From a virus, in IMG/VR virus record IMGVR_UViG_3300030107_005087, positions 1 through 47,143 of that record: a stretch of DNA of 47,143 bases; one strand, written 5' to 3'. Below are positions 11,583 to 25,840 of the stretch, in pieces. The translations under genes and the position numbers were made by a program. Position 1 is the stretch's first letter; every line of letters starts with the position of its first letter. A model generated the notes under the pieces. That model searched no databases. It had not been told where the DNA came from and was given only the letters and a program-made list of their open reading frames with translations.

Positions 11583-11826
11583 GTTTCATCTTTTCTTTAG
11601 CTGTTCTCCATACTTTATGAACGTATGAACGAGAACAACCAAGCTTTTTAGCGACATCAACTTTAGTCATCTGGCCCCAGACAATAAGTTCTACTACATC
11701 TCTTTGTTTCTGTGGCAGGGCTTCAACTAATTCAATGATCTTTTCTTTTAAAGGATGATCTTCTATTTCAGGATGTGAAAATATAGAATTAATTATGTCT
11801 GGGTTAACTATTATCTCTCTCATCAA
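11569..11826 (-). CDS. Sigma-70 region 4-like HTH protein
   Basis: The 85-residue protein is essentially a sigma region 4: helix ELVEALPQKQRDVVELIVWG, then MTKVDVAKKLGCSRSYVHKVWRTAKEKM, which is the -35-binding HTH pattern (about residues 30-82). It lacks regions 1-3, so it cannot act as a complete sigma factor. It may bind RNA polymerase beta-flap or DNA as a phage transcription switch. It overlaps the dNMP kinase gene by 23 bases and belongs to the replication operon. Confidence 0.75.
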   Translation of the reverse strand: MMREIIVNPDIINSIFSHPEIEDHPLKEKIIELVEALPQKQRDVVELIVWGQMTKVDVAKKLGCSRSYVHKVWRTAKEKMKHELL

Positions 11827-12343
11827 TGATTGCCCTAACTCTGTCCACTAGATATGGAATGGTGAAATTGTTTTCAACCACCGCATCCCAGTCGGCATCG
11901 TCAAGGCTATCTTCACTAGGGTGAGATAGCTTGGGAGCTGATTCACGGTCAATGCGGATCATAATCCCCCCAAGCTTTTTAATAGCTTTGAACTCGTTAG
12001 GGTATCGCACGTCTGTGACTGCGATACCTTTCACGGCCTTGTCCTTCTGTAGCTCTTTGACTTTAGCTATTACTATCTTAAGCCAAACGTCTTCTCCTAC
12101 TACTAAACGAGCTCCTTGGCCTAGGTTTTGTAGGAAAGTTCTAACCTCAGCTGTTTGCTTGGCTGTTTCCCAGCCTTGCACGTTAACGAAATCACTAAGT
12201 GGCATGCCACCACCAATAATAGGGTTGGCTTTGAGGGCCAGCTCTCTCACTCCGTCTGCAAAAGCTACCTTAGAATAGAAAAGGTTATCAGCTAAGGTAT
12301 CTTTGCCTACCTGTGCTCGTGATCCTAATCCTATGATAGTCAT
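11804..12343 (-). CDS. Deoxynucleoside monophosphate kinase
   Basis: The 179-residue P-loop kinase phosphorylates dNMPs to dNDPs for phage DNA synthesis. The Walker A is GSRAQVGKDT (residues 7-16; Lys14, Thr16), followed by KVAFADGVRE, and the VTDVRYPNEF segment near 108-117, which is characteristic of the phage dNMP kinase family, with IRIDRES after it. Length fits the small actinophage version. It starts in ATGA with the upstream nuclease gene, and GAAGGAG lies before the start. Its location among replication genes supports a nucleotide-supply role. Confidence 0.82.
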   Translation of the reverse strand: MTIIGLGSRAQVGKDTLADNLFYSKVAFADGVRELALKANPIIGGGMPLSDFVNVQGWETAKQTAEVRTFLQNLGQGARLVVGEDVWLKIVIAKVKELQKDKAVKGIAVTDVRYPNEFKAIKKLGGIMIRIDRESAPKLSHPSEDSLDDADWDAVVENNFTIPYLVDRVRAIIDERDNS

Positions 12344-18764: not shown

Positions 18765-19394
18765 TCATCCTCCTCTAGGATAATCTTCAATAGGATACCG
18801 GAAATCTTCCAGCACCTGTTTCTTCCATTTCTTATCGCCATGGAAGAAGACGTAGCGATGCTTACGAGGCCGTTGAACGGTCTTTAAAGCATCACCATAT
18901 TTGTCACGCATTAACTGCGCTCTGTTGGGCTGGCCTCGGAACTCGTCTACCACAGATTGACTGTGTAGATGTTCCTTGCCTGCCACGACTGTATCTGTAC
19001 GCTTGGCGCTAAGCCCAGAGTACAGAAAGTTTGTAGCCTGATACACAACACCAAGGTGGTCCTGTGCCGTATCGGCATAGGACACGATGATCTTGTTCTT
19101 GGGTAATTGCCTGAGGCTTTTACCCACGAGCCTGCTCGCCTCGTTAGGGCGATTGTACTTCAGCACAAGCCTGTTGAGCTCCAGTACGTCAAGCTCGTAT
19201 CCTTCGCCACAGATACCCTTCCTCAATGTTGATGAGAAAGGAGTACCGTAGGTGACGACACCAACGAGCTCTTCGTCGTGGAACAAACCAAACCGATAGC
19301 TGACGCTTGGGAACCTCTTGGCATAGTGGATCTCAAGGATGAACGGTTCACAGTCAGACCGGCTAACCGGTCTGACTGCGTATCCGCTACTCAT
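18765..19394 (-). CDS. Mom-like DNA base modification protein (GNAT fold)
   Basis: The 209-residue protein matches the Mom family of phage Mu, which converts adenine in phage DNA to a methylcarbamoyl form that blocks restriction. Recognisable parts are FGLFHDEELVGVVTYGTP (about 35-52), LELNRLVLKYNRPNEASRLVGKSL (about 68-91), and IVSYADTAQDHLGVVYQATNFLYSG (about 100-125), the acyl-transferase-like core. The ATG at 19394 is preferred, with GGGGGA 7 bases upstream. It lies next to whiB. Activity on adenine is inferred from the family; other substrates are possible. Confidence 0.8.
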   Translation of the reverse strand: MSSGYAVRPVSRSDCEPFILEIHYAKRFPSVSYRFGLFHDEELVGVVTYGTPFSSTLRKGICGEGYELDVLELNRLVLKYNRPNEASRLVGKSLRQLPKNKIIVSYADTAQDHLGVVYQATNFLYSGLSAKRTDTVVAGKEHLHSQSVVDEFRGQPNRAQLMRDKYGDALKTVQRPRKHRYVFFHGDKKWKKQVLEDFRYPIEDYPRGG

Positions 19395-19653
19395 CTCTGA
19401 GTCCCCCGACAAGGTGAAAATGTAAAGGATCAGTACCTTCCATCAAATCATTGATGTCCATGTCTTTCGTGAAGCTTCTCTCATAGGCGAAAAGGTGTTC
19501 CCAGCCGCTTTCATATCTCCATACAGATCCAGATTTCATGTTTCGGTTAATGGTTGCTTTGTACAATCCTTTACTACCCTCATATGAAAAGATGGCTGTT
19601 ACTATCTCTCCATATTCTGCATCTTCGTGATGTACTTCTTTTTGAAAATTCAT
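19387..19653 (-). CDS. Small hypothetical protein
   Basis: This 88-residue protein (start at the second ATG of ATGATG, with AGGAGG 7 bases upstream; the first ATG at 19656 overlaps the previous stop) is acidic and aromatic: EDAEYGEIVTAIFSYEGSKGLYKATINRN, WRYESGWEHLFAYER. Two or three beta strands and a helix are likely. It overlaps the Mom-like gene by 8 bases. No family is recognised. Confidence 0.55.
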   Translation of the reverse strand: MNFQKEVHHEDAEYGEIVTAIFSYEGSKGLYKATINRNMKSGSVWRYESGWEHLFAYERSFTKDMDINDLMEGTDPLHFHLVGGLRDE

Positions 19654-19982: not shown

Positions 19983-20074
19983 GATTTCCTCCTCATGAAT
20001 TATGCCGTGCCATTGTGACACGATCGTGGACTGCCGGATCATGAATCCGGTGCCGGTCGTTAGCCGGTCAGTCC
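19978..20074 (-). promoter_or_regulatory. Repeated leader RNA element, copy 1
   Basis: Minus-strand order: outer stem GGACTG/CAGTCC (20069-20074 with 20028-20033), arm 1 CCGG/CCGG with 7-nt loop, arm 2 CCGGA-TTCATGA-TCCGG, linker ACGA, hairpin TCGTGTC-ACAAT-GGCACGG, then the start hairpin TTCATGA/TCATGAA (7 bp) with GGAGG in the loop and the ATG in the stem. Confidence 0.8.
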
Positions 20075-20080
20075 TTTGGC

Positions 20081-20686
20081 TCATGTGTACCATGTCCTAT
20101 CTGGTTTCGGATCCCAAGGGCACTGGTTCTTCGCACCCTGAGGACGTAGGTATCTAACGTTGTTGTCCTTGAATGCTTGTCGCAATGCTTTCTTGGCATC
20201 AGCTCCCAGAGCCATGCCCACAAGATTAAGATAGATGGCACAGAATTGCCATCCGTGACCTTGGTGCCACATAAAGTCTGGGCGACCATTCTCACTGTAG
20301 TCAACAGTATGAGCCAGCTCGTGCAAGACAACGTACTTCTGTCTTGCCCATTTGGATAAGCTGATCTCTTCATCGTTGGCACATCCACCGGATGCTCGTG
20401 GAGTGATCTTGATCCCACGAGATCCATTGCTGGTAATGCCTTGAACGTAAACATGCCTTCCATAAGGTGTGTACCTCCATGGCTTCATCTTTACTGATCC
20501 TTGACGACGATGGAGCCTAGGGTACTTCTTCGCAAACGATTGCCTGCGAGTCAGTCTGGTAACGAACTCCCAAACGTCCTCTAGGTCGCCTAGCATTTCC
20601 TTACCACCAAAAGCACCCCAGTCCACACTCCGCTCTGCAGTGTAGACCATCTGCTGTTGATTGTCATAATCTTTTTTACCTCTCAT
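20081..20686 (-). CDS. SprT-like zinc metalloprotease
   Basis: The 201-residue protein carries the zinc protease motif VVLHELAHTVD (His122, Glu123, His126) and a third histidine in HGWQFCAIYLNLVG (about His144), the order seen in SprT/Spartan-like WSS-type proteases. The basic N-terminal half (RRQSFAKKYPRLHRRQ) may bind DNA. SprT-like proteins act on DNA-bound or damaged proteins; a phage role in removing host DNA-bound proteins is inference. The leader is element copy 2, and the start codon lies in a 7-bp hairpin stem. Confidence 0.8.
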   Translation of the reverse strand: MRGKKDYDNQQQMVYTAERSVDWGAFGGKEMLGDLEDVWEFVTRLTRRQSFAKKYPRLHRRQGSVKMKPWRYTPYGRHVYVQGITSNGSRGIKITPRASGGCANDEEISLSKWARQKYVVLHELAHTVDYSENGRPDFMWHQGHGWQFCAIYLNLVGMALGADAKKALRQAFKDNNVRYLRPQGAKNQCPWDPKPDRTWYT

Positions 20687-20779
20687 AGTGTCCTCCTCTA
20701 TGAGTCATGTCCATGGATTGCCCATGGATCGTGCCCTGCCCAGTCTCGCTCTGGGAGCCGGTCGTTAACCGGTCAGGGC
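20682..20779 (-). promoter_or_regulatory. Repeated leader RNA element, copy 2
   Basis: Outer stem GCCCTG/CAGGGC, arm 1 CCGGT-TAACG-ACCGG, arm 2 CCCAG with loop AGCGAGA (the most divergent loop, still 7 nt), linker ACGA, hairpin TCCATGG-GCAAT-CCATGGA, start hairpin CTCATAG/CTATGAG (7 bp) around AGGAGG. A further 6-bp inverted repeat CGGATC/GATCCG lies just upstream (20782-20810). Confidence 0.8.
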
Positions 20780-20801
20780 TGTCGGATCCGAGGGGACGTA
20801 A

Positions 20802-21131
20802 TCAGATCCGAACTTCTTTGGTGATGGCAGTCACATGCTCCGGTCGCTTGCACTCTAGCTGAGACTTGCTGTTGGGAGTCAGTAGCCGTGTGCTTCTCCA
20901 GCTGGTATGGATCTCAATCGTTCCATCGTGTAGCTGTTGAATGTACTTCACGGTGTGATAGCCACGAGCTCGTCCATCGTAGTCCTTAGCCCTGAACACA
21001 CGTCCTACTTCCAATGGGTATCGGAAGCCTTCAACCTTGAATGACTCAAGGTGAATCGGTCGCTTGTCCTCAGGTAGCCAGTGATAGGCTCCTCTGGATT
21101 TAGCTCGTTTCCTTCTTGTTAGTTTTGCCAT
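20802..21131 (-). CDS. Basic hypothetical protein
   Basis: The 109-residue protein is strongly basic at the start (KLTRRKRAKSRGAYHW) and continues with strands SFKVEGFRYPLEVGRVFRAKDYDG, YHTVKYIQQLHDGTIEIHTSWRS, like a small SH3-like barrel with a basic tail. Nucleic-acid binding is possible. It is headed by element copy 3 and ends 22 bases before copy 2. No named family is recognised. Confidence 0.6.
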   Translation of the reverse strand: MAKLTRRKRAKSRGAYHWLPEDKRPIHLESFKVEGFRYPLEVGRVFRAKDYDGRARGYHTVKYIQQLHDGTIEIHTSWRSTRLLTPNSKSQLECKRPEHVTAITKEVRI

Positions 21132-21213
21132 AGTTCCTCCTCTGGCAGTCAGGGAGTTTCCCTGATCGTGGACCTCCGAGTCACGAACTCGGCGTGGGCT
21201 TAACCCAAGGTCC
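21126..21213 (-). promoter_or_regulatory. Repeated leader RNA element, copy 3
   Basis: Outer stem GGACCT/AGGTCC, arm 1 TGGG-TTAAG-CCCA (all four pairs changed from CCGG), arm 2 CCGAG-TTCGTGA-CTCGG, linker ACGA, hairpin TCAGGGA-AAC-TCCCTGA, start hairpin TGCCA/TGGCA with AGGAGG in the loop. This is the clearest compensatory variant. Confidence 0.8.
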
Positions 21214-21222
21214 TACCAATAC

Positions 21223-21240
21223 ATTATCACACTCTGTCAA
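21223..21240 (-). promoter_or_regulatory. Possible extended -10 promoter before element copy 3
   Basis: On the minus strand TGTGATAAT (21231-21223) is an extended -10 shape; the expected start near 21216 would put the 5' end almost exactly at the outer stem of copy 3 (21213). A TTGACA lies just upstream but at the wrong distance for a -35 box. Seen by eye only. Confidence 0.3.
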
Positions 21241-21250
21241 GTCGGACTTT

Positions 21251-21388
21251 TCAGTCGCATGACCAATGTGGCTCAATTTCACCATAATGTCCGGCGCATA
21301 AAGCGTCGTGCTCAAGCTTGCCAGTGACAATGATGCAGGCTAGGAGTACTAGCCCCATGAGTATGCTTTTGGTTCGCTTACTCATCAT
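21251..21388 (-). CDS. Small single-pass membrane protein
   Basis: The frame gives 45 residues with start at the ATGATG overlapping the end of the upstream gene (21378-21388). It has a basic start (MSKRTKS), one membrane segment ILMGLVLLACIIVTG, and a polar end with two cysteines (LCAGHYGEIEPHWSC). The topology is probably N-in. It could be a membrane-acting early protein such as a superinfection exclusion factor, but nothing specific supports that. No leader element precedes it. Confidence 0.5.
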   Translation of the reverse strand: MMSKRTKSILMGLVLLACIIVTGKLEHDALCAGHYGEIEPHWSCD

Positions 21389-21599
21389 CTGGCTCGTTAA
21401 GATCGAAGACGTAAACAGCAGTGAATGGCTGTTCACGAACTTTACGCTCTAACTCTCTAGCTTCTACTTTAAGTAAAGCTAGACGCTCACGTTCACGTTC
21501 AAGCTCTTCAAGCTGACCCTCCAGATGTGCTTGGATGGGATCGTAGTGATCGCTTGTGTCATCGCTGGCGATCCAGTCGTCGTAAAAGCCGTCACTCAT
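21378..21599 (-). CDS. Coiled-coil protein with YDPxQAxLEG motif
   Basis: The 73-residue acidic protein has the motif YDPIQAHLEG at about 19-28 followed by a Glu/Arg/Leu-rich coiled coil (LEELERERERLALLKVEARELERKV, in parts), then TAVYVFDLNEPDDE. The same motif ends the protein encoded directly upstream (YDPVQAILEG). It overlaps that gene by 4 bases (ATGA). Function unknown; the shared motif suggests a common partner or a duplicated segment. Confidence 0.55.
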   Translation of the reverse strand: MSDGFYDDWIASDDTSDHYDPIQAHLEGQLEELERERERLALLKVEARELERKVREQPFTAVYVFDLNEPDDE

Positions 21600-21937
21600 G
21601 AGTTACCCTCCAGAATAGCCTGAACAGGATCATAGGTCGGAACGATCTGTTTCTTAATATCGCTCCGAGGTACTACTGTTCCGTCAGGATAGACAGCACG
21701 GTCAGGATAGACACGGATGGGTTTAGCCACAGTGGACAAGTCCACCATTCTGTTACCATCCTTGTAAGCATCTGGTTTACCGTCAACGTGAACGACCTTA
21801 GGGGAAGTCACAGTGTCTTCCTTCCAGTCAATCGCTCCGTCACCGAGTGCGACGTGAACATCGCCCAGTGCTTCCTGAACTGATTTACTCAGTCCGGCTT
21901 CTTGTGTAGCCGTTATGGTTATTTTGTATAGTTCCAT
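21596..21937 (-). CDS. Hypothetical protein ending in YDPxQAxLEG
   Basis: The 113-residue protein starts MELYKITITATQEAG, has strands around VVHVDGKPDAY and IRVYPDRAVYPDGTVVP, and ends YDPVQAILEGNS. The end motif recurs near the start of the next protein. It is headed by element copy 4, which puts its start codon in a 6-bp stem. The next two genes (21378, 21251) follow without leaders, so the three form one translation-coupled unit. Confidence 0.55.
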   Translation of the reverse strand: MELYKITITATQEAGLSKSVQEALGDVHVALGDGAIDWKEDTVTSPKVVHVDGKPDAYKDGNRMVDLSTVAKPIRVYPDRAVYPDGTVVPRSDIKKQIVPTYDPVQAILEGNS

Positions 21938-22027
21938 GATTCCTCCTCATGGTTAGTGTACCGGCATTGTTACCGGTATCGTGCCCTGCCGAGTCGTGAG
22001 CTCGGTGCCGGTCCTACCGGTCAGGGC
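21934..22027 (-). promoter_or_regulatory. Repeated leader RNA element, copy 4
   Basis: Outer stem GCCCTG/CAGGGC, arm 1 CCGGT-AGG-ACCGG, arm 2 CCGAG-CTCACGA-CTCGG, linker ACGA, hairpin TACCGGT-AACAAT-GCCGGTA (one G-U pair), start hairpin CCATGA/TCATGG (6 bp) with GGAGG in the loop. Confidence 0.8.
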
Positions 22028-22034
22028 GATGAGC

Positions 22035-22232
22035 TTAGACGAGCGTTACTATCGCATCTCTGGCGATCTTGCCATCAATACATCCGCAGTACTCGTCGGT
22101 CTCGTAGTGAAAGAAAACCGTACCAGAATCTAACCACTCTCTAGGTTCCAGTACTCTCTCAATCGTTACTCGCTCTTGGTTATACATGAATGTATCACCT
22201 TCTTTGAGTCCGTTTGCTGTCATTGCTCCCAT
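22035..22232 (-). CDS. Small hypothetical protein
   Basis: The 65-residue protein (MGAMTANGLKEGDTF) has strands MYNQERVTIERVLEPREW, TVFFHYETDEYCGCIDG, a small beta-barrel-like layout with a CxC pair. It is headed by element copy 5 and stands alone between two leader elements, so it is expected to be translated from its own leader. No family recognised. Confidence 0.55.
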   Translation of the reverse strand: MGAMTANGLKEGDTFMYNQERVTIERVLEPREWLDSGTVFFHYETDEYCGCIDGKIARDAIVTLV

Positions 22233-22318
22233 GTATCCTCCTCATGGTGTTATGTCGGGATAGTTCCCGATCGTGCCCTGCCGGATCATGAATCCGGTGC
22301 CGACTAATCGGACAGGGC
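22229..22318 (-). promoter_or_regulatory. Repeated leader RNA element, copy 5
   Basis: Outer stem GCCCTG/CAGGGC, arm 1 CCGA-TTAG-TCGG, arm 2 CCGGA-TTCATGA-TCCGG, linker ACGA, hairpin TCGGGA-ACTA-TCCCGA, start hairpin CCATG/CATGG (5 bp) with AGGAGG in the loop. Confidence 0.8.
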
Positions 22319-22324
22319 GACCCA

Positions 22325-22549
22325 TTAGGACAGGTCGTACAAGCTGGTTAGAGCTTGCGTGATGTAGTTCTCAAGGTGGAGCTTGTCTTTCTCGCTACCC
22401 TTGAAGTCAACTACTGATTGATGAACGTCGCCACACTCCAGAGTCTCTAACCATTCGGTGTAGTACTCTTCGTCAGGAGCTCCTAGAGCTTCTGATTGAG
22501 CTTCGTCAATGTTCTCAATGATTTCTTCTAGTGTTAATGATATTCCCAT
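22325..22549 (-). CDS. Small acidic hypothetical protein
   Basis: The 74-residue acidic, mostly helical protein contains LTLEEIIENIDEAQSEAL, EYYTEWLETLECGDVHQSVVDFKG and a C-terminal helix NYITQALTSLYDL. Small acidic helical proteins from early phage regions often bind host enzymes; that is context only. It is headed by element copy 6. No family recognised. Confidence 0.55.
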   Translation of the reverse strand: MGISLTLEEIIENIDEAQSEALGAPDEEYYTEWLETLECGDVHQSVVDFKGSEKDKLHLENYITQALTSLYDLS

Positions 22550-22637
22550 GATTCCTCCTCATGGATAGTGTCAAGCGTTGTTGCTTGATCGTGAGCTAGG
22601 GGGTCATGAACCCCCAGCTGGTCTTACCAGTTAGCTC
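22546..22637 (-). promoter_or_regulatory. Repeated leader RNA element, copy 6
   Basis: Outer stem GAGCTA/TAGCTC, arm 1 CTGGT-AAG-ACCAG, arm 2 GGGGG-TTCATGA-CCCCC, linker ACGA, hairpin TCAAGC-AACAAC-GCTTGA, start hairpin CCATGA/TCATGG. The 5' strand of the outer stem includes the stop codon region of the upstream gene (22631). Confidence 0.82.
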
Positions 22638-22936
22638 GTTAGCTCTTCGCCACATACGAAGCAGTAGCCGTACTCGTCTTCTCGTGGATCCCATATTGCT
22701 GGGTCTTCACGAGATGGGTACAGGTACTCTCCATTGTGCTTAAGGAGAGGCATTTGCACTCCTTCGTCACTGAAGTCGCCATCTCTCTCGTCAATGAGAT
22801 CGTGAACCTCTTCAGGTGAATGTGACTTGCAGACATCAATGATCCAGCATGGTGCATGGTTTGGTCCTCCGAACTCTACGTCGTATTTCCGTCCATCAAC
22901 ATTGGTCATTGTTTCATATCTTATTGCTTGTGCCAT
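22631..22936 (-). CDS. Small acidic protein with C-terminal CxxC
   Basis: The 101-residue acidic protein has strands IRYETMTNVDGRKYDVEFGG, CWIIDVCKSHSPEEVHDL and ends EDEYGYCFVCGEEL, a rubredoxin-knuckle-like CxxCG. With Cys near residues 30 and 36 it could hold a metal. It is headed by element copy 7, and its own 3' end reaches into copy 6. Function unknown. Confidence 0.55.
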   Translation of the reverse strand: MAQAIRYETMTNVDGRKYDVEFGGPNHAPCWIIDVCKSHSPEEVHDLIDERDGDFSDEGVQMPLLKHNGEYLYPSREDPAIWDPREDEYGYCFVCGEELTS

Positions 22937-23026
22937 GTGTCCTCCTCATGGATAATTGCCTAGGGTGAATCCCTAGATCGTGCTCTGCCCAGTCGTGAAC
23001 TGGGAGCCGGTCTTACCGGTCAGAGC
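22933..23026 (-). promoter_or_regulatory. Repeated leader RNA element, copy 7
   Basis: Outer stem GCTCTG/CAGAGC, arm 1 CCGGT-AAG-ACCGG, arm 2 CCCAG-TTCACGA-CTGGG, linker ACGA, hairpin TCTAGGG-ATTCA-CCCTAGG, start hairpin CCATG/CATGG with AGGAGG in the loop. Confidence 0.82.
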
Positions 23027-23032
23027 TCGCCA

Positions 23033-23263
23033 TTAGACGATCTTGGCTAGCAGTGTGAATGCTTCGCCCATCTTGTTGTTCATGGCATCTTCATCATTGA
23101 AGTAGTCAGCTACATCTTCTATCACTGCACTCTTGAGTGTTTGGTCAAGCCCGATGTCTACTTGGTGGTAGTCAGCCCAAGCTCTTGCATCTACTTCCAC
23201 AACCATGGTCACTCGCATCTGGAATGTGGTTGCTTTCTTTGTTGGTGTTTCTGTTGTTGTCAT
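23033..23263 (-). CDS. Small hypothetical protein
   Basis: The 76-residue protein has a Thr/Lys-rich start (TTTETPTKKATTF), strand MRVTMVVEVDARAWADYH, then helical IGLDQTLKSAVIEDVADYFNDEDAMN and GEAFTLLAKIV. A strand plus two helices is likely. It is headed by element copy 8 and lies alone between two elements. No family recognised. Confidence 0.55.
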   Translation of the reverse strand: MTTTETPTKKATTFQMRVTMVVEVDARAWADYHQVDIGLDQTLKSAVIEDVADYFNDEDAMNNKMGEAFTLLAKIV

Positions 23264-23351
23264 GGATCCTCCTCCATGGTTGTGTCAGGGACAGTTCCCT
23301 GATCGTGGACTAGGGAGTCATGAACTCCCTGCCGGTCTTACCGGTTAGCCC
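23261..23351 (-). promoter_or_regulatory. Repeated leader RNA element, copy 8
   Basis: Outer stem GGGCTA/TAGTCC (one G-U pair), arm 1 CCGGT-AAG-ACCGG, arm 2 GGGAG-TTCATGA-CTCCC, linker ACGA, hairpin TCAGGGA-ACTG-TCCCTGA, start hairpin CATGG/CCATG around AGGAGGAT. The outer stem includes the last base of the upstream gene's stop codon. Confidence 0.82.
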
Positions 23352-23794
23352 TAGAGCTCACCTGCCTGCCTCAGAGCGTGCCTGAGGTAGTAATGGTTTC
23401 TCATGTCGGTGCCTGAGTTTGCCCACTGTCGCAATGTGCTTGTAGGCACTGGATTGCTTCGTGAGTAGTAGCTCCTTGTTTGATACTTCCAGACTAGGTG
23501 ACTGAACTCTTCATCACGTTGAGCTTGAATGATTTCCTTAGCTCGTGCTACCTGCTCTGGTGTGAGCTTTCGGCTCTTGTTTCCAGATACTCGGAAGGCT
23601 TCATTCTTGACCTCATGGTATGTGGTCCAGAATATGTGTGACGCTGTTCCAGCAATGGCTCGGTGGGGTGAGCTTCCACTGAAGATAAGCCCAGTTTCAG
23701 CTTCTAGTTCCAATGCTCGTGCTTGAACTTCACCAGTCCCGACCTTGGCATTTCCTAGCTTGGTTGCTTCGTTGATTATTGCTTGGTTGTTCAT
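23351..23794 (-). CDS. Hypothetical helical protein
   Basis: The 147-residue protein is largely helical: IINEATKLGNAKVGTGEVQARALELEAE (in segments), HIFWTTYHEVKNEAFRV, KLTPEQVARAKEIIQAQRDEEFSHLVWKY, and a basic Tyr-rich end (RNHYYLRHALRQAGEL). The residues LTPEQVARAKEII resemble a helical DNA-binding or adaptor segment, but no HTH is firm. It is headed by element copy 9. Function unknown. Confidence 0.55.
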   Translation of the reverse strand: MNNQAIINEATKLGNAKVGTGEVQARALELEAETGLIFSGSSPHRAIAGTASHIFWTTYHEVKNEAFRVSGNKSRKLTPEQVARAKEIIQAQRDEEFSHLVWKYQTRSYYSRSNPVPTSTLRQWANSGTDMRNHYYLRHALRQAGEL

Positions 23795-23881
23795 GGATCC
23801 TCCTCCATGGTTGTTGTCGGCACTGTTGCCGATCGTGAGTAGGGGAGCATTGCACTCCCCAGCAGGCTAGTTCCTGAACTC
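23792..23881 (-). promoter_or_regulatory. Repeated leader RNA element, copy 9 (most divergent)
   Basis: Outer stem reduced to GAGT/ACTC, arm 1 CAGG-AACTAG-CCTG, arm 2 GGGGAG-TGCAATG-CTCCCC, linker ACGA, hairpin TCGGCA-ACAG-TGCCGA, start hairpin CATGG/CCATG. The outer stem and arm 1 use the last codons and TAG stop of the upstream gene (23867), so pairing is kept within coding sequence. Confidence 0.72.
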
Positions 23882-24235
23882 TGAGAACAGCTGATACGAG
23901 CTAACGTATACGTTGGCCATGTGCTCTTGATATGCAGTGATGCGGTCGCCACGGTAGTAGCCATCAGGACCTTGCACTGCCCTGTCGTAGTAGACAGCCC
24001 AGTAACCTTCGTCATCGTCGCCTTTAACAAGCCCCTTCTCAACGAGGATGCTTAGCACCTGATCAAACTTCTCACGAGTCACTTCAACAAGTGAGTTGTC
24101 GTTGAAATCACGAAGAACTGTCTGCTCTTTGACGAATGACCAAAGGCTCTGTTCTCCGCATGGTTGCATAGCTTCTAGATGAAGCATGAGCATGTCGGCG
24201 ATTGCTTCTGCATGTGGTTTAAATTTACGGTTCAT
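23867..24235 (-). CDS. Hypothetical protein, possible winged helix
   Basis: The 122-residue protein has helices PHAEAIADMLMLHLEAM and then LVEVTREKFDQVLSILVEKGLVKGDDDEGYWAVYY, a helix-helix-hairpin order like the recognition part of a winged-helix domain (about 48-82), then a polar C-terminus. DNA binding is therefore possible. It is headed by element copy 10 and its 3' end forms part of copy 9. Confidence 0.55.
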   Translation of the reverse strand: MNRKFKPHAEAIADMLMLHLEAMQPCGEQSLWSFVKEQTVLRDFNDNSLVEVTREKFDQVLSILVEKGLVKGDDDEGYWAVYYDRAVQGPDGYYRGDRITAYQEHMANVYVSSYQLFSEFRN

Positions 24236-24322
24236 GGATCCTCCTCCATTGTTGCCTAGGGCTAGTCCCTAGATCGTGGACTGGGGAGTCACGAGCTCCC
24301 CTGCCGATCTTATCGGTAGTCC
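24234..24322 (-). promoter_or_regulatory. Repeated leader RNA element, copy 10
   Basis: Outer stem GGACT/AGTCC, arm 1 CCGAT-AAG-ATCGG, arm 2 GGGGAG around loop CTCGTGA, linker ACGA, hairpin TCTAGGG-ACTAG-CCCTAGG, start hairpin ATGG/CCAT (one outer pair lost). Its 5' part overlaps the last 13 bases of the gene at 24310. Confidence 0.8.
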
Positions 24323-24471
24323 TGATCACCAAAGTGATCACGGTTCTTGAACAAGCTCCAGCGATCCTGAAGCTTCGTCAAATTACTTACTCCGTACCGG
24401 TTTTCCCAGCCTAGGGCTATCCACCCTAGGTTGAGGCCAATCAGTACATACAATGTGATTGTGATTGCCAT
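24310..24471 (-). CDS. Small membrane protein, first gene of the early operon
   Basis: The 53-residue frame starts with ATG at 24471 behind AGGAGG and ends with TAA inside element copy 10. Residues about 3-21 (ITITLYVLIGLNLGWIALG) form one membrane segment; the rest is polar and basic (WENRYGVSNLTKLQDRWSLF). It is the first gene after the ribozyme-like fold. The start codon lies in a 5-bp CATGC/GCATG hairpin like those of its neighbours, which supports translation. Function unknown. Confidence 0.6.
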   Translation of the reverse strand: MAITITLYVLIGLNLGWIALGWENRYGVSNLTKLQDRWSLFKNRDHFGDQDYR

Positions 24472-24487
24472 GCTGTCCTCCTGCATG
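24469..24487 (-). promoter_or_regulatory. Start-codon hairpin (SD in loop) without three-way junction
   Basis: CATGC/GCATG pairs around AGGAGGACA, so the ribosome site is looped out and the ATG is in the stem, exactly as in the ten full elements. Here it directly follows the ribozyme-like fold. Confidence 0.65.
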
Positions 24488-24543
24488 TGAGTTTCTTGAG
24501 CCCCAGAGTGGGGCCCTCATCAGTGTGTTAATTCACAGACTCA
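24488..24543 (-). ncRNA. Hammerhead-ribozyme-like fold (type III layout)
   Basis: Minus strand in order: TGAGT then C (GTC cleavage triplet), stem I TGTG-AATTAA-CACA, the core CTGATGA, stem II GGGCCCC-ACTCT-GGGGCTC, then AA, GAA and ACTCA, which pairs with TGAGT as stem III. All three helices, both conserved core strands and the GUC site are in the right order. The flaw is two extra A residues between stem II and the GAA core strand, which could weaken or alter cleavage. A cut would fall after the C at 24538, separating upstream RNA from the operon mRNA. Stem II alone could also pair in a competing way. Confidence 0.55.
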
Positions 24544-25134
24544 TTGAGACAAGGAGGAGCGTCGGCACACAGTACCGAAACTGAGGTGAGGAAAGCCTCC
24601 ACTGTCATCAGTCACCAGCTGGATAATTGGCTGGTCTCAATTCTGCTTTGATCTGGCGATCATACTCCGAGGCGGTGACACTGAATATGTTTCGGATACC
24701 TACTCGCCTCGTCCCTGTGATGTCTTGGATGGGCTGGTTTAGCATTACTGCCAAGTGCCTCTAGATCCGAAGATCGCCTTTGCCCAACATCTCAGGGAGT
24801 CAACAGCTTTCGCTCACTCTCCTGCACCGGCTACTTCCCAGATCTGAAAGACCAAGGTTTTGCCAGCTACTCCAGTGTCCTCCGTGTGTCCCACGGCTGA
24901 AGCAATTCCCCAATCCTTGAACTTTCGCCCTTGGTATTAATTCCTGCTCCTGTCGCTGACCGCCTTGCCTTACCTCAGCAGTCTCCAGAAGCCCTTGGGC
25001 TACTCGTCCGATGTTCTCGGATCAAGTTTGTCAAGATCACCGCCCCTTGGCGCTTGAGGGAACCGGTACTGAACCCTTGGTGCTTGACCTCGGAGCTCAG
25101 GGACCTATCTGCGGTGTGAAATCCGATATGAGAT
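24544..25134 (-). ncRNA. Candidate large structured non-coding RNA (about 590 nt)
   Basis: No convincing gene lies here on either strand, but the minus strand is dense in hairpins: ACCAGC/GCTGGT (24614-24635), CGAGGCG/CGCCTCG (24668-24711), GATC-TTCG-GATC (24764-24775, a C(UUCG)G loop), CAGG-GAGT arm with an AGC-GAAA-GCT tip (24793-24824, GNRA loop), CCGTG/CACGG (24882-24896). The GNRA and UUCG loops read correctly only on the minus strand. A promoter-like site lies just upstream and the ribozyme-like fold just downstream. Size, phage setting and ornate folding recall GOLLD or ROOL RNAs; identity was not tested. Confidence 0.5.
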
Positions 25135-25162
25135 ACCTTAACGCATATCCGTCTTTTTTCAA
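25135..25162 (-). promoter_or_regulatory. Candidate minus-strand promoter for the ncRNA/early operon
   Basis: On the minus strand TTGAAA (25162-25157) and TAAGGT (25140-25135) are 16 bases apart, a sigma-70-like pair with an actinobacterial TAnnnT -10. Start would be near 25128, where the hairpin-rich region begins. The plus strand here could also form a terminator (GATATG/CATATC then six T at 25154-25159). Confidence 0.35.
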
Positions 25163-25322
25163 CGTTTTTGTTGGGATTTTTTCAAACAACTCTCTGACCA
25201 GCACAAACACAGGCTCTTGTCACAGCGAAATCAAGGCACATTGAGCACAAACATTGAAACACGACCCCGACCTAGGTCCCCAGCAACACCCCCTTAGCCA
25301 GACAAATACTTGAGCTCTCAGG

Positions 25323-25394
25323 ACCGGATGGATCGGATCGGATTTGTCCGGTACTGGTTCCGCTGGGAGCCGGATCGGATCGGATCGGGGGGGA
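25323..25394 (+). repeat. GGATC pentamer repeats with G-run
   Basis: GGATC is repeated head-to-tail near 25329-25343 and at 25372-25388, and the second cluster runs into seven G (25387-25393), followed by AGGGTGG. ACCGGA (25323-25328) and TCCGGT (25347-25352) make a 6-bp stem around the first cluster. A second G-rich stretch lies at 25436-25447. These may be iterons, a terminase recognition tract or G-quadruplex-prone DNA. Confidence 0.6.
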
Positions 25395-25554
25395 GGGTGG
25401 ACGGTTCAGGATCAATGATCTGGATCTGGGTTCATGGGGTAGGGGGGTCCATAAGATTCGGTTCGGAACATCATAGGAAACCCTTCACAGGATGTGGGTG
25501 ACAAACTGACATGAGTCAAGATCCAGTAATTCCACTGTCATTTTATGTCTAGCT

Positions 25555-25573
25555 ACCAAAACTTCGTTTTGGT
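25555..25573. other. 8-bp hairpin ACCAAAAC/GTTTTGGT
   Basis: A perfect 8-bp stem with a 3-base loop TTC (or 7 bp with CTTCG). No T-run follows directly; a T7 run occurs about 27 bases later (25600). It might be a bidirectional terminator or a protein-binding site. Confidence 0.45.
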
Positions 25574-25621
25574 GGACCTGGTACCGTACCGTTCCGTTCG
25601 TTTTTTTACATAGTACTGATA

Positions 25622-25647
25622 CCGGTTAGGGGATCAAACCGGCTTTT
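25622..25647 (+). terminator. Weak terminator-like hairpin
   Basis: CCGGTT and AACCGG (6 bp) enclose a 9-base loop and are followed by CTTTT. The T-run is short, so termination would be weak. It lies in front of the terminase leader. Confidence 0.3.
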
Positions 25648-25686
25648 GTCACAATGACGGATGTGTCTGAGCATGCTACTCACGGA

Positions 25687-25760
25687 AGCGCCTTCGGTAG
25701 GGTTCCACCCTAGTCCTATACAGAAGCTCTGCTTCTACCGGCGTATTTCGCTCCGGCGCT
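25687..25760 (+). ncRNA. Candidate multi-branch leader structure before terminase
   Basis: AGCGCC (25687-25692) pairs with GGCGCT (25755-25760) and encloses hairpins TAGGGT-TCC-ACCCTA (25698-25712) and AGAAGC-TCT-GCTTCT (25722-25736), plus a weak GCG-TATTT-CGC. The 74-nt size and branch count look like a cloverleaf, but there is no 5-bp T-arm with a TTCRA loop, so it is not a normal tRNA. It may regulate the terminase operon or act in packaging. Confidence 0.35.
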
Positions 25761-25840
25761 AATCCCCCGATTTCACAAGGTTCTCAGATTGTAAGGTTAT
25801 TCTATACCATACGCCCACGCTGTGTCCACAGTTAGGGTAA

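Follow-up and report, generated by a model that had tools for sequence, protein, structure and literature searches.

Genomic setting of the early operon

The window analysed here, a virus record of 47,143 bases, belongs to a tailed phage in which terminase, portal, and other structural genes lie on the right on the plus strand. The minus strand carries, leftward from position 24471, many small genes and then a DnaB-like helicase, an exonuclease, a primase-like protein, an amidase, and a nucleotide kinase. A marine phage was inferred from the kind of contigs. No close named relative was present in the phages collection: a DNA search there gave no match to the window and TerL matches remained below 60% identity. 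A search of viral contigs with the early protein encoded at 23867–24235 found no relative. A deoxynucleotide monophosphate kinase (11804–12343; PF21448, E=7e-9) and a Mom family protein (18765–19412; Pfam PF25680, E=8e-40) are encoded on the minus strand. Mom is a DNA-modification protein known from phage Mu, and the presence of both proteins suggests that the phage DNA is modified.

The following features were located at the operon head:

25799–25828, minus strand: sigma-70-like promoter TGGACA-18-TAGAAT for leader and operon, kept in the window and four close relatives
24544–25790, minus strand: leader of ~1.25 kb, probably a noncoding RNA, with conserved blocks and no minus-strand ORF of at least 60 aa
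24488–24543, minus strand: the entire type III hammerhead ribozyme, a variant with an AA insert (based on sequence, Rfam, covariation, and simulation)
24310–24471, minus strand: first early gene (53 aa); among 18 compared, the only homologue is the first gene of L004

The longest sense ORF in the window's leader was 45 aa. Across clades the leader measured 1.0–1.5 kb without a long conserved ORF, some relatives having longer frames (up to 246 aa in L035), and blocks such as CUUAUGGACCCC and CTTATGGACCCC were kept. Comparison of the leader with Rfam, including the known giant RNAs, returned no matching family. The promoter and approximately 240 bases after it were conserved in five close relatives; on consensus alone, the number of promoters found by scanning was not above chance. 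The first proteins of 18 records fell into 13 groups without detectable similarity, indicating that the ribozyme belongs to the operon head and not to a gene; L003 and L005 have nearly the same hammerhead as the window, yet unrelated first genes.

Anatomy of the hammerhead

Read letter by letter, the minus strand from 24543 to 24488 (UGAGU-C-UGUG-AAUUAA-CACA-CUGAUGA-GGGCCCC-ACUCU-GGGGCUC-AA-GAA-ACUCA) contains a complete type III hammerhead with two extra A residues between stem II and GAAA. Its parts are:

24543–24539, minus strand: 5' strand of stem III, UGAGU (open stem, 5 bp)
24538–24539, minus strand: GUC site, with U16.1 at 24539 and C17 at C24538, assigned by homology to the hammerhead consensus
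Minus strand: stem I, UGUG/CACA (4 bp), closed by loop AAUUAA
24517–24523, minus strand: core strand CUGAUGA, invariant in 14/14 AA-class sequences
Minus strand: stem II, GGGCCCC/GGGGCUC (7 bp), closed by loop ACUCU
24496–24497, minus strand: AA insert absent from the consensus, placed between stem II and G12 and unchanged in 14 distinct sequences
24493–24495, minus strand: core strand GAA, with A15.1 at 24492 (from sequence)
24492–24488, minus strand: 3' strand of stem III, ACUCA (open stem, 5 bp)

A previous sequence-only reading had listed these parts in this order on the minus strand and had pointed out the two A residues as non-standard. Both descriptions were correct, including the coordinates, and the insert recurred in all 14 AA-class sequences; this count includes L232 and L234, which came from a scan in which the AA was no requirement. 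The NUH triplet is present, with U16.1 paired to A15.1. The site is GUC in the window, while H17 is U in L021 and A in L019, L017, and L024. By homology, and in the absence of cleavage data, cleavage is predicted 3' of C24538, leaving U24537 with a 5'-OH. The hammerhead helices were present in the minimum-free-energy fold; the Vienna ensemble also contained folds in which the core helices were partly rearranged. Loop I (AAUNRA) was kept together with the AA, and no partner for a tertiary contact in stem or loop II was identified. A second CUGAUGA, at 24611, was rejected as a hammerhead, being without GAAAC and without an in-register cleavage site.

Chance expectation and Rfam models

The pattern CTGATGA-N12-30-GAAACTCA matched once in the window and never in 100 shuffles. 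A hammerhead descriptor (stem III of at least 5, stem I of at least 4, and stem II of at least 6 bp, insert of 0–2 nt) gave one match in the real window vs. one in 3000 Markov-simulated windows; with a looser descriptor, 8 matches were obtained in 400 simulated windows. At gathering (curated) thresholds, Rfam gave no match anywhere in the window. With an E-value threshold, RF00008 (Hammerhead_3) was matched over its full length (1–54) at 25.3 bits (E=0.0082), compared to a gathering score of 48.5. Recognition by the Rfam models, which had been proposed as a check on the sequence-only reading, was therefore obtained only in part, as a full-length but sub-threshold match, while matches to a family-specific model were strong. 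One consensus feature was not met, as stem II is not joined directly to G12 of GAAA, and the element is classed as a hammerhead variant rather than a consensus member. Type II hammerheads were found in the window neither with Rfam nor by manual scanning. Rfam matches to FTX_5, RF_site4, and snoRNA families in the window were dismissed as chance.

Conservation and covariation in relatives

Relatives were identified through TerL (37 contigs from viral_contigs, 99–46% identity). A descriptor scan located hammerheads at the equivalent place, in the interval that separates terL from the first gene of the minus strand, in L003, L004, L005, L007, L010, L011, L015, L020, L021, L022, L023, and L035, and reading of the sequences added those of L012, L017, L019, and L024. 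Every close relative with coverage had one; most other TerL relatives end short of the region. The most distant contigs that span the region upstream of terL (L030, L031, L032, and L037; TerL identity of at most 62%) had no hammerhead there. Deviating forms were observed among the added head hammerheads: GUA sites in L017, L019, and L024, CUGACGA with an odd stem II base in L017 and L024, and CUGAAGA with an extra U before stem II in L012.

Two degenerate scans were run over all viral contigs, one requiring CUCAAGAAAC and the other, with free spacing, requiring GAAACGAGGAGGA. The AA form was present in 22 viral records including the window (14 distinct sequences), always just before a Shine-Dalgarno sequence (SD) and a start codon. 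The free-spacing scan gave 18 matches: 16 with AA, one AA-less (on the contig of L020), and one (L233) without hammerhead stems; inserts of other lengths were not seen in it. AA-less hammerheads occupied the equivalent place in L015, L019, L020, L022, and L023. The AA was always accompanied by a 4-bp stem I and loop AAUNRA, whereas the stem I of AA-less forms had 6–7 bp. This linkage suggests, by inference, that the insert is part of, or is compensated by, a particular tertiary arrangement. In cellular genomes, a degenerate scan of genome_contigs for the AA variant gave at least 118 matches and, among the matches listed, no retrieved locus folds as a hammerhead. Most matches of the degenerate scans are chance hammerhead-like motifs.

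In an alignment of the 14 distinct homologues (A2), 99.1% of the paired cells were standard vs. 84.7% in shuffles, and 31 cells were changed on both sides vs. 10.3 in shuffles; sliding the partners reduced pairing to 22–44%. Both-side changes occurred at seven pairs, three in stem III (e.g., UGAGU/ACUCA to CUCGU/ACGAG), three in stem I (UGUG/CACA, CCCG/CGGG, CCUG/CAGG, and GCUG/CAGC), and one in stem II. CUGAUGA, GAAA, U16.1, and the AA were constant throughout, while the stems varied. The family model R1 gave exactly one match per record in 15 of the 23 records searched, AA-less forms scoring 20–25 bits. The window scored 77.1 bits but belongs to the training set, and the members of A2 match by construction. 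The earlier claim of a head-of-operon hammerhead that would cut a large upstream RNA from the mRNA is supported by its place, by the compensatory changes, and by the single copy per record.

Pairing of the Shine-Dalgarno sequence

Two further features surround the hammerhead:

24552–24558, minus strand: anti-Shine-Dalgarno UCCUCCU, upstream of the cut (from the fold; SD 95% paired to the 5' side)
24469–24487, minus strand: start-codon hairpin CAUGC-AGGAGGACA-GCAUG, with the SD at 24476–24482 and the ATG at 24471–24469

The start-codon hairpin, which had also been proposed from the sequence alone, proved to be real: its CAUGC/GCAUG pairing is replaced by CAUGU/ACAUG (C-G to U-A) in L003 and L005. 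Other early genes show a comparable arrangement, with the SD in the loop of a short start-codon hairpin (e.g., 24469–24487 and 20684–20702) whose pairs change together between genes (CAUGC..GCAUG, CAUAG..CUAUG).

In most records stem III is formed by UCCUCCUCGU/ACGAGGAGGA, the 3' strand being the SD itself. The window and L003–L007 have a shorter stem III, and the SD follows inside the small start-codon hairpin, where it is paired by an upstream UCCUCCU (24558–24552 in the window). The minimum-free-energy fold of 24460–24566 contains the anti-SD/SD helix (z -3.3). According to partition functions, the mean probability of an unpaired SD was 0.06 in the uncleaved RNA vs. 0.57 in the 3' product, and 0.04 vs. 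0.76, respectively, in the window. Pairing of the SD to the 5' side was near complete in most records, by one of two routes, stem III or a separate anti-SD. The fit was poorer for L004 (0.39 and 0.80 in uncleaved RNA and 3' product, respectively), where locking was weak with 36% paired to the 5' side, and for L040 (0.40 and 0.39), where by calculation it was absent. These calculations ignore tertiary structure and ribosomes. The distance from cut to ATG was 54–69 nt in all 20 tabulated loci, and the SD always adjoined or lay inside stem III. Because the SD is paired to sequence upstream of the cut, cleavage, for which there are no data, would also act on translation, a point absent from the sequence-only reading.

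RNA elements within the operon

Type II hammerheads above the Rfam gathering score were found in L010, L015, L020–L023, and L035, all on the operon strand and each shortly before an SD and start codon. Relatives had 1–7 type II matches per record (seven in L125), and judging from a degenerate scan of viral contigs such hammerheads seem to be very common in phages. The window has at its internal places ten copies (20006–24322) of a tRNA-like element, preceding nearly each small early gene:

24256–24322, minus strand: tRNA-like element 1, before gene 2
23817–23881, minus strand: tRNA-like element 2, a divergent copy
23285–23351, minus strand: tRNA-like element 3
22960–23026, minus strand: tRNA-like element 4
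22571–22637, minus strand: tRNA-like element 5
22255–22318, minus strand: tRNA-like element 6
21961–22027, minus strand: tRNA-like element 7
21149–21213, minus strand: tRNA-like element 8
20711–20779, minus strand: tRNA-like element 9, weak Rfam DUF2693-FD match (31.2 bits, E=3.3e-4)
20006–20074, minus strand: tRNA-like element 10

The repeats form a three-way junction. It consists of P1, a P2 hairpin, and P3, the last ending in a 7-nt loop and stacking directly on P1, and is followed by ACGAU(C/A), a further hairpin, and the SD. They also occur in G001–G005, G007, G010, G011, G019, G020, G022, G023, G026, and G028. In alignment A3 (17 sequences) both-side changes were found at 13 of 16 pairs; five of its rows are without the P2 helix, so that covariation in P2 rests on the remaining rows. 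In 69 model-fitted sequences the figure was 15 of 15 pairs, in an alignment that leans to the model. P1 and P3 together comprised 11 bp (5+6 or 6+5), with the 7-nt loop, in 63 of 63 copies among those listed; the search had required the 7-nt loop and direct stacking but not the 11-bp sum. The loops are often T-loop-like (UUCRANN), others being only NNCRNNN, and lie opposite an 11-nt linker such as ACUGGCAGGCA. A T arm with such a loop stacked directly on an acceptor-like stem is a tRNA feature, and the element resembles the acceptor/T-arm half of a tRNA. Other tRNA features were not met, as there is no anticodon arm, the stack has 11 rather than 12 bp, and ACGA stands in place of the 3' CCA; ARAGORN found no tRNA in the window. 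The best copy in the window reached 31.2 bits with RF02926 (DUF2693-FD), whose gathering score is 44.5, and sub-threshold matches were present in 7 of 18 relatives.

When four operons were mapped, a recurrent order emerged: element, 9–32 nt, start codon, ORF, stop codon, and next element. Of 36 distances computed from the stop to the next element, 31 lay between -15 and +22 nt. The exceptions (100, 225, 352, 382, and 496 nt) leave room for another gene. These operons contained a type III head hammerhead with ten tRNA-like elements (window), with nine (G001), with five type II hammerheads and four tRNA-like elements (G010), or with six and two, respectively (G023). Two unrelated structures thus occupy equivalent places, even within one operon, which is our strongest clue to a function in cutting the transcript between genes or in protecting its ends, and suggests an interchangeable mRNA punctuation. 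RNase P cuts the phage M3 and C4 RNAs, T4 gene 32 mRNA, and other mRNAs (PMC11143913), so that cutting of the tRNA-like elements by RNase P is possible, although nothing here shows it. In the absence of cleavage data, the element is a candidate RNase P/Z site or new ribozyme.

Tentatively, and at slightly less than even odds, we regard the early region as a series of cassettes, each an RNA element, an SD, and an ORF. In these, hammerheads (a type III element heading the operon, type II elements within it) and the tRNA-like junction, the latter cut by host RNase P, by another tRNA enzyme, or as a new ribozyme by itself, would be interchangeable cutters yielding single-gene mRNAs, with the head ribozyme also gating the ribosome-binding site.

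Proposed mechanism and alternative explanations

With a probability of roughly 0.7, we interpret the head element, whose anatomy, conservation, covariation, position, and predicted change in SD pairing were observed, as a functional type III hammerhead, representing a separate subclass marked by the AA insert, that cuts the leader off and exposes the first ribosome-binding site. Its cleavage, the order of events, the effect on translation, and the function of the leader are inferred. Transcription would start at the putative promoter near 25800 and proceed leftward, reading first the noncoding leader of ~1.25 kb and then the early operon. Until the cut is made, sequence on its 5' side would keep the SD of the first gene base-paired; in most relatives the helix concerned is stem III itself, and in the window it prolongs stem III. 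The ribozyme may fold during transcription and cut after C24538. The 3' end of the leader RNA would then be fixed and carry a 2',3'-cyclic phosphate, and the operon mRNA would begin with a 5'-OH shielded by the hairpins of stems I and II. The cut would also remove the strand covering the ribosome-binding site and make gene 1 translatable. Against this mechanism stand the non-consensus AA insert, given that other core inserts slow cleavage, the weak or absent SD locking in L004 and L040, and the partly rearranged folds in the Vienna ensemble; the cut leader could also stay annealed through stem III (5 bp) and the 7-bp SD/anti-SD helix.

It is possible, though unlikely, that the hammerhead is active but selected for RNA processing only, making the leader 3' end and separating the mRNA, with SD pairing as a by-product of placing stem III over a purine-rich SD. 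A leader of 1.0–1.5 kb without a long conserved ORF in all clades would suit such a role, the downstream type II hammerheads leave their SD uncovered, and phage hammerhead arrays that segment transcripts are described by Perreault et al. (PMC3088659). Processing alone fits less well with the almost full pairing of the SD to the 5' side in most records and with the two different routes that lead to it. We doubt more strongly that the ribozyme is slow or conditional, the AA tuning cleavage to need a factor or an infection condition in the manner of a timer. Slow or salt-dependent cleavage occurs in some natural hammerheads that have inserts in the core: A6a slows cleavage, and HHmeta is nearly inactive in standard Mg2+ (PMC3088659). 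The constant association of the AA with a 4-bp stem I and loop AAUNRA looks as if another tertiary contact were used. Slow cleavage is nevertheless not required by the position, since canonical AA-less forms stand there in relatives.

An inactive relic, kept only as a structured leader that locks the SD, had been left open by the sequence-only reading. The score below the Rfam gathering threshold and the non-consensus insert would be compatible with it. Because 14 distinct sequences share the AA and all core bases, including CUGAUGA, GAAA, and U16.1, despite changes in all stems, and the element persists in 22 records, this option lacks support, and we consider it very improbable and excluded as far as sequence can do so. 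Hammerhead-like motifs do arise by chance in large databases, as most of our degenerate-scan matches illustrate, but a chance match or an element acting at the DNA level is ruled out here by the covariation and by the simulation (one match in 3000 windows), and the place is conserved.

Comparison with known systems

In a literature search that left most subscription journals outside, and is weak evidence for that reason, we found no AA insert at this place of a hammerhead, no natural hammerhead with a helix holding the SD, and no tRNA-like element replacing hammerheads. What hammerheads do in phages has not been settled. The present one is kept at a defined place, with the SD locked by sequence on the 5' side of the cut, so that a role in translation lends itself to direct testing with a plasmid reporter. 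If confirmed, it would be a natural ribozyme that switches translation on. The exact replacement of type II hammerheads by a tRNA-like element in related operons hints at a selected function in separating cistrons and nominates the tRNA-like junction as a new RNA element for cleavage assays, and the AA-insert subclass widens what the hammerhead core seems to tolerate.

The element shares with Hammerhead_3 (RF00008) CUGANGA, GAAA, the U16.1-A15.1 pair, H17, closed stems I and II, and an open stem III. Its own features are the AA before G12, the 4-bp stem I with loop AAUNRA, and its occurrence in a phage mRNA before an SD; a 2023 paper handled stem II-GAAA-stem III as an uninterrupted block (PMC10085705). 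Perreault et al. (2011, PMC3088659) show that short core inserts occur in accepted natural hammerheads, and describe the HHphage of haloviruses HF1/HF2. This lies 13 nt ahead of the first gene in a polycistronic early transcript, whose in vivo 5' end was mapped to no more than 3 nt from the site of cleavage. Both HHphage and the window element combine a short insert in a variant core with a location immediately ahead of the first early gene, but the HHphage insert lies near C3/stem I (2a, 2b) and that of the window between 11.1 and G12. HHphage is also from an archaeal virus, and SD locking is not described in the text consulted. The arrays of type II hammerheads in prophages (Rfam RF02276), which cleave in vitro according to the same source (PMC3088659), have in common with our relatives the presence of several hammerheads per operon between single genes. 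The window differs from them in a type III, SD-locked head element and in the tRNA-like elements at its internal places.

These tRNA-like elements share with the DUF2693-FD RNA (RF02926), whose function is unknown, the three-way junction and, in the copy at 20711–20779, the loop AGCGAGA, while the subsequent ACGA(U/C), the further hairpin, and the SD are their own. For the head element, the engineered hammerhead switches of bacterial ribosome-binding sites by Wieland and Hartig are similar in that a stem reportedly masks the SD and cleavage frees it. Those switches are artificial, whereas the window element would be natural, with no ligand implied.
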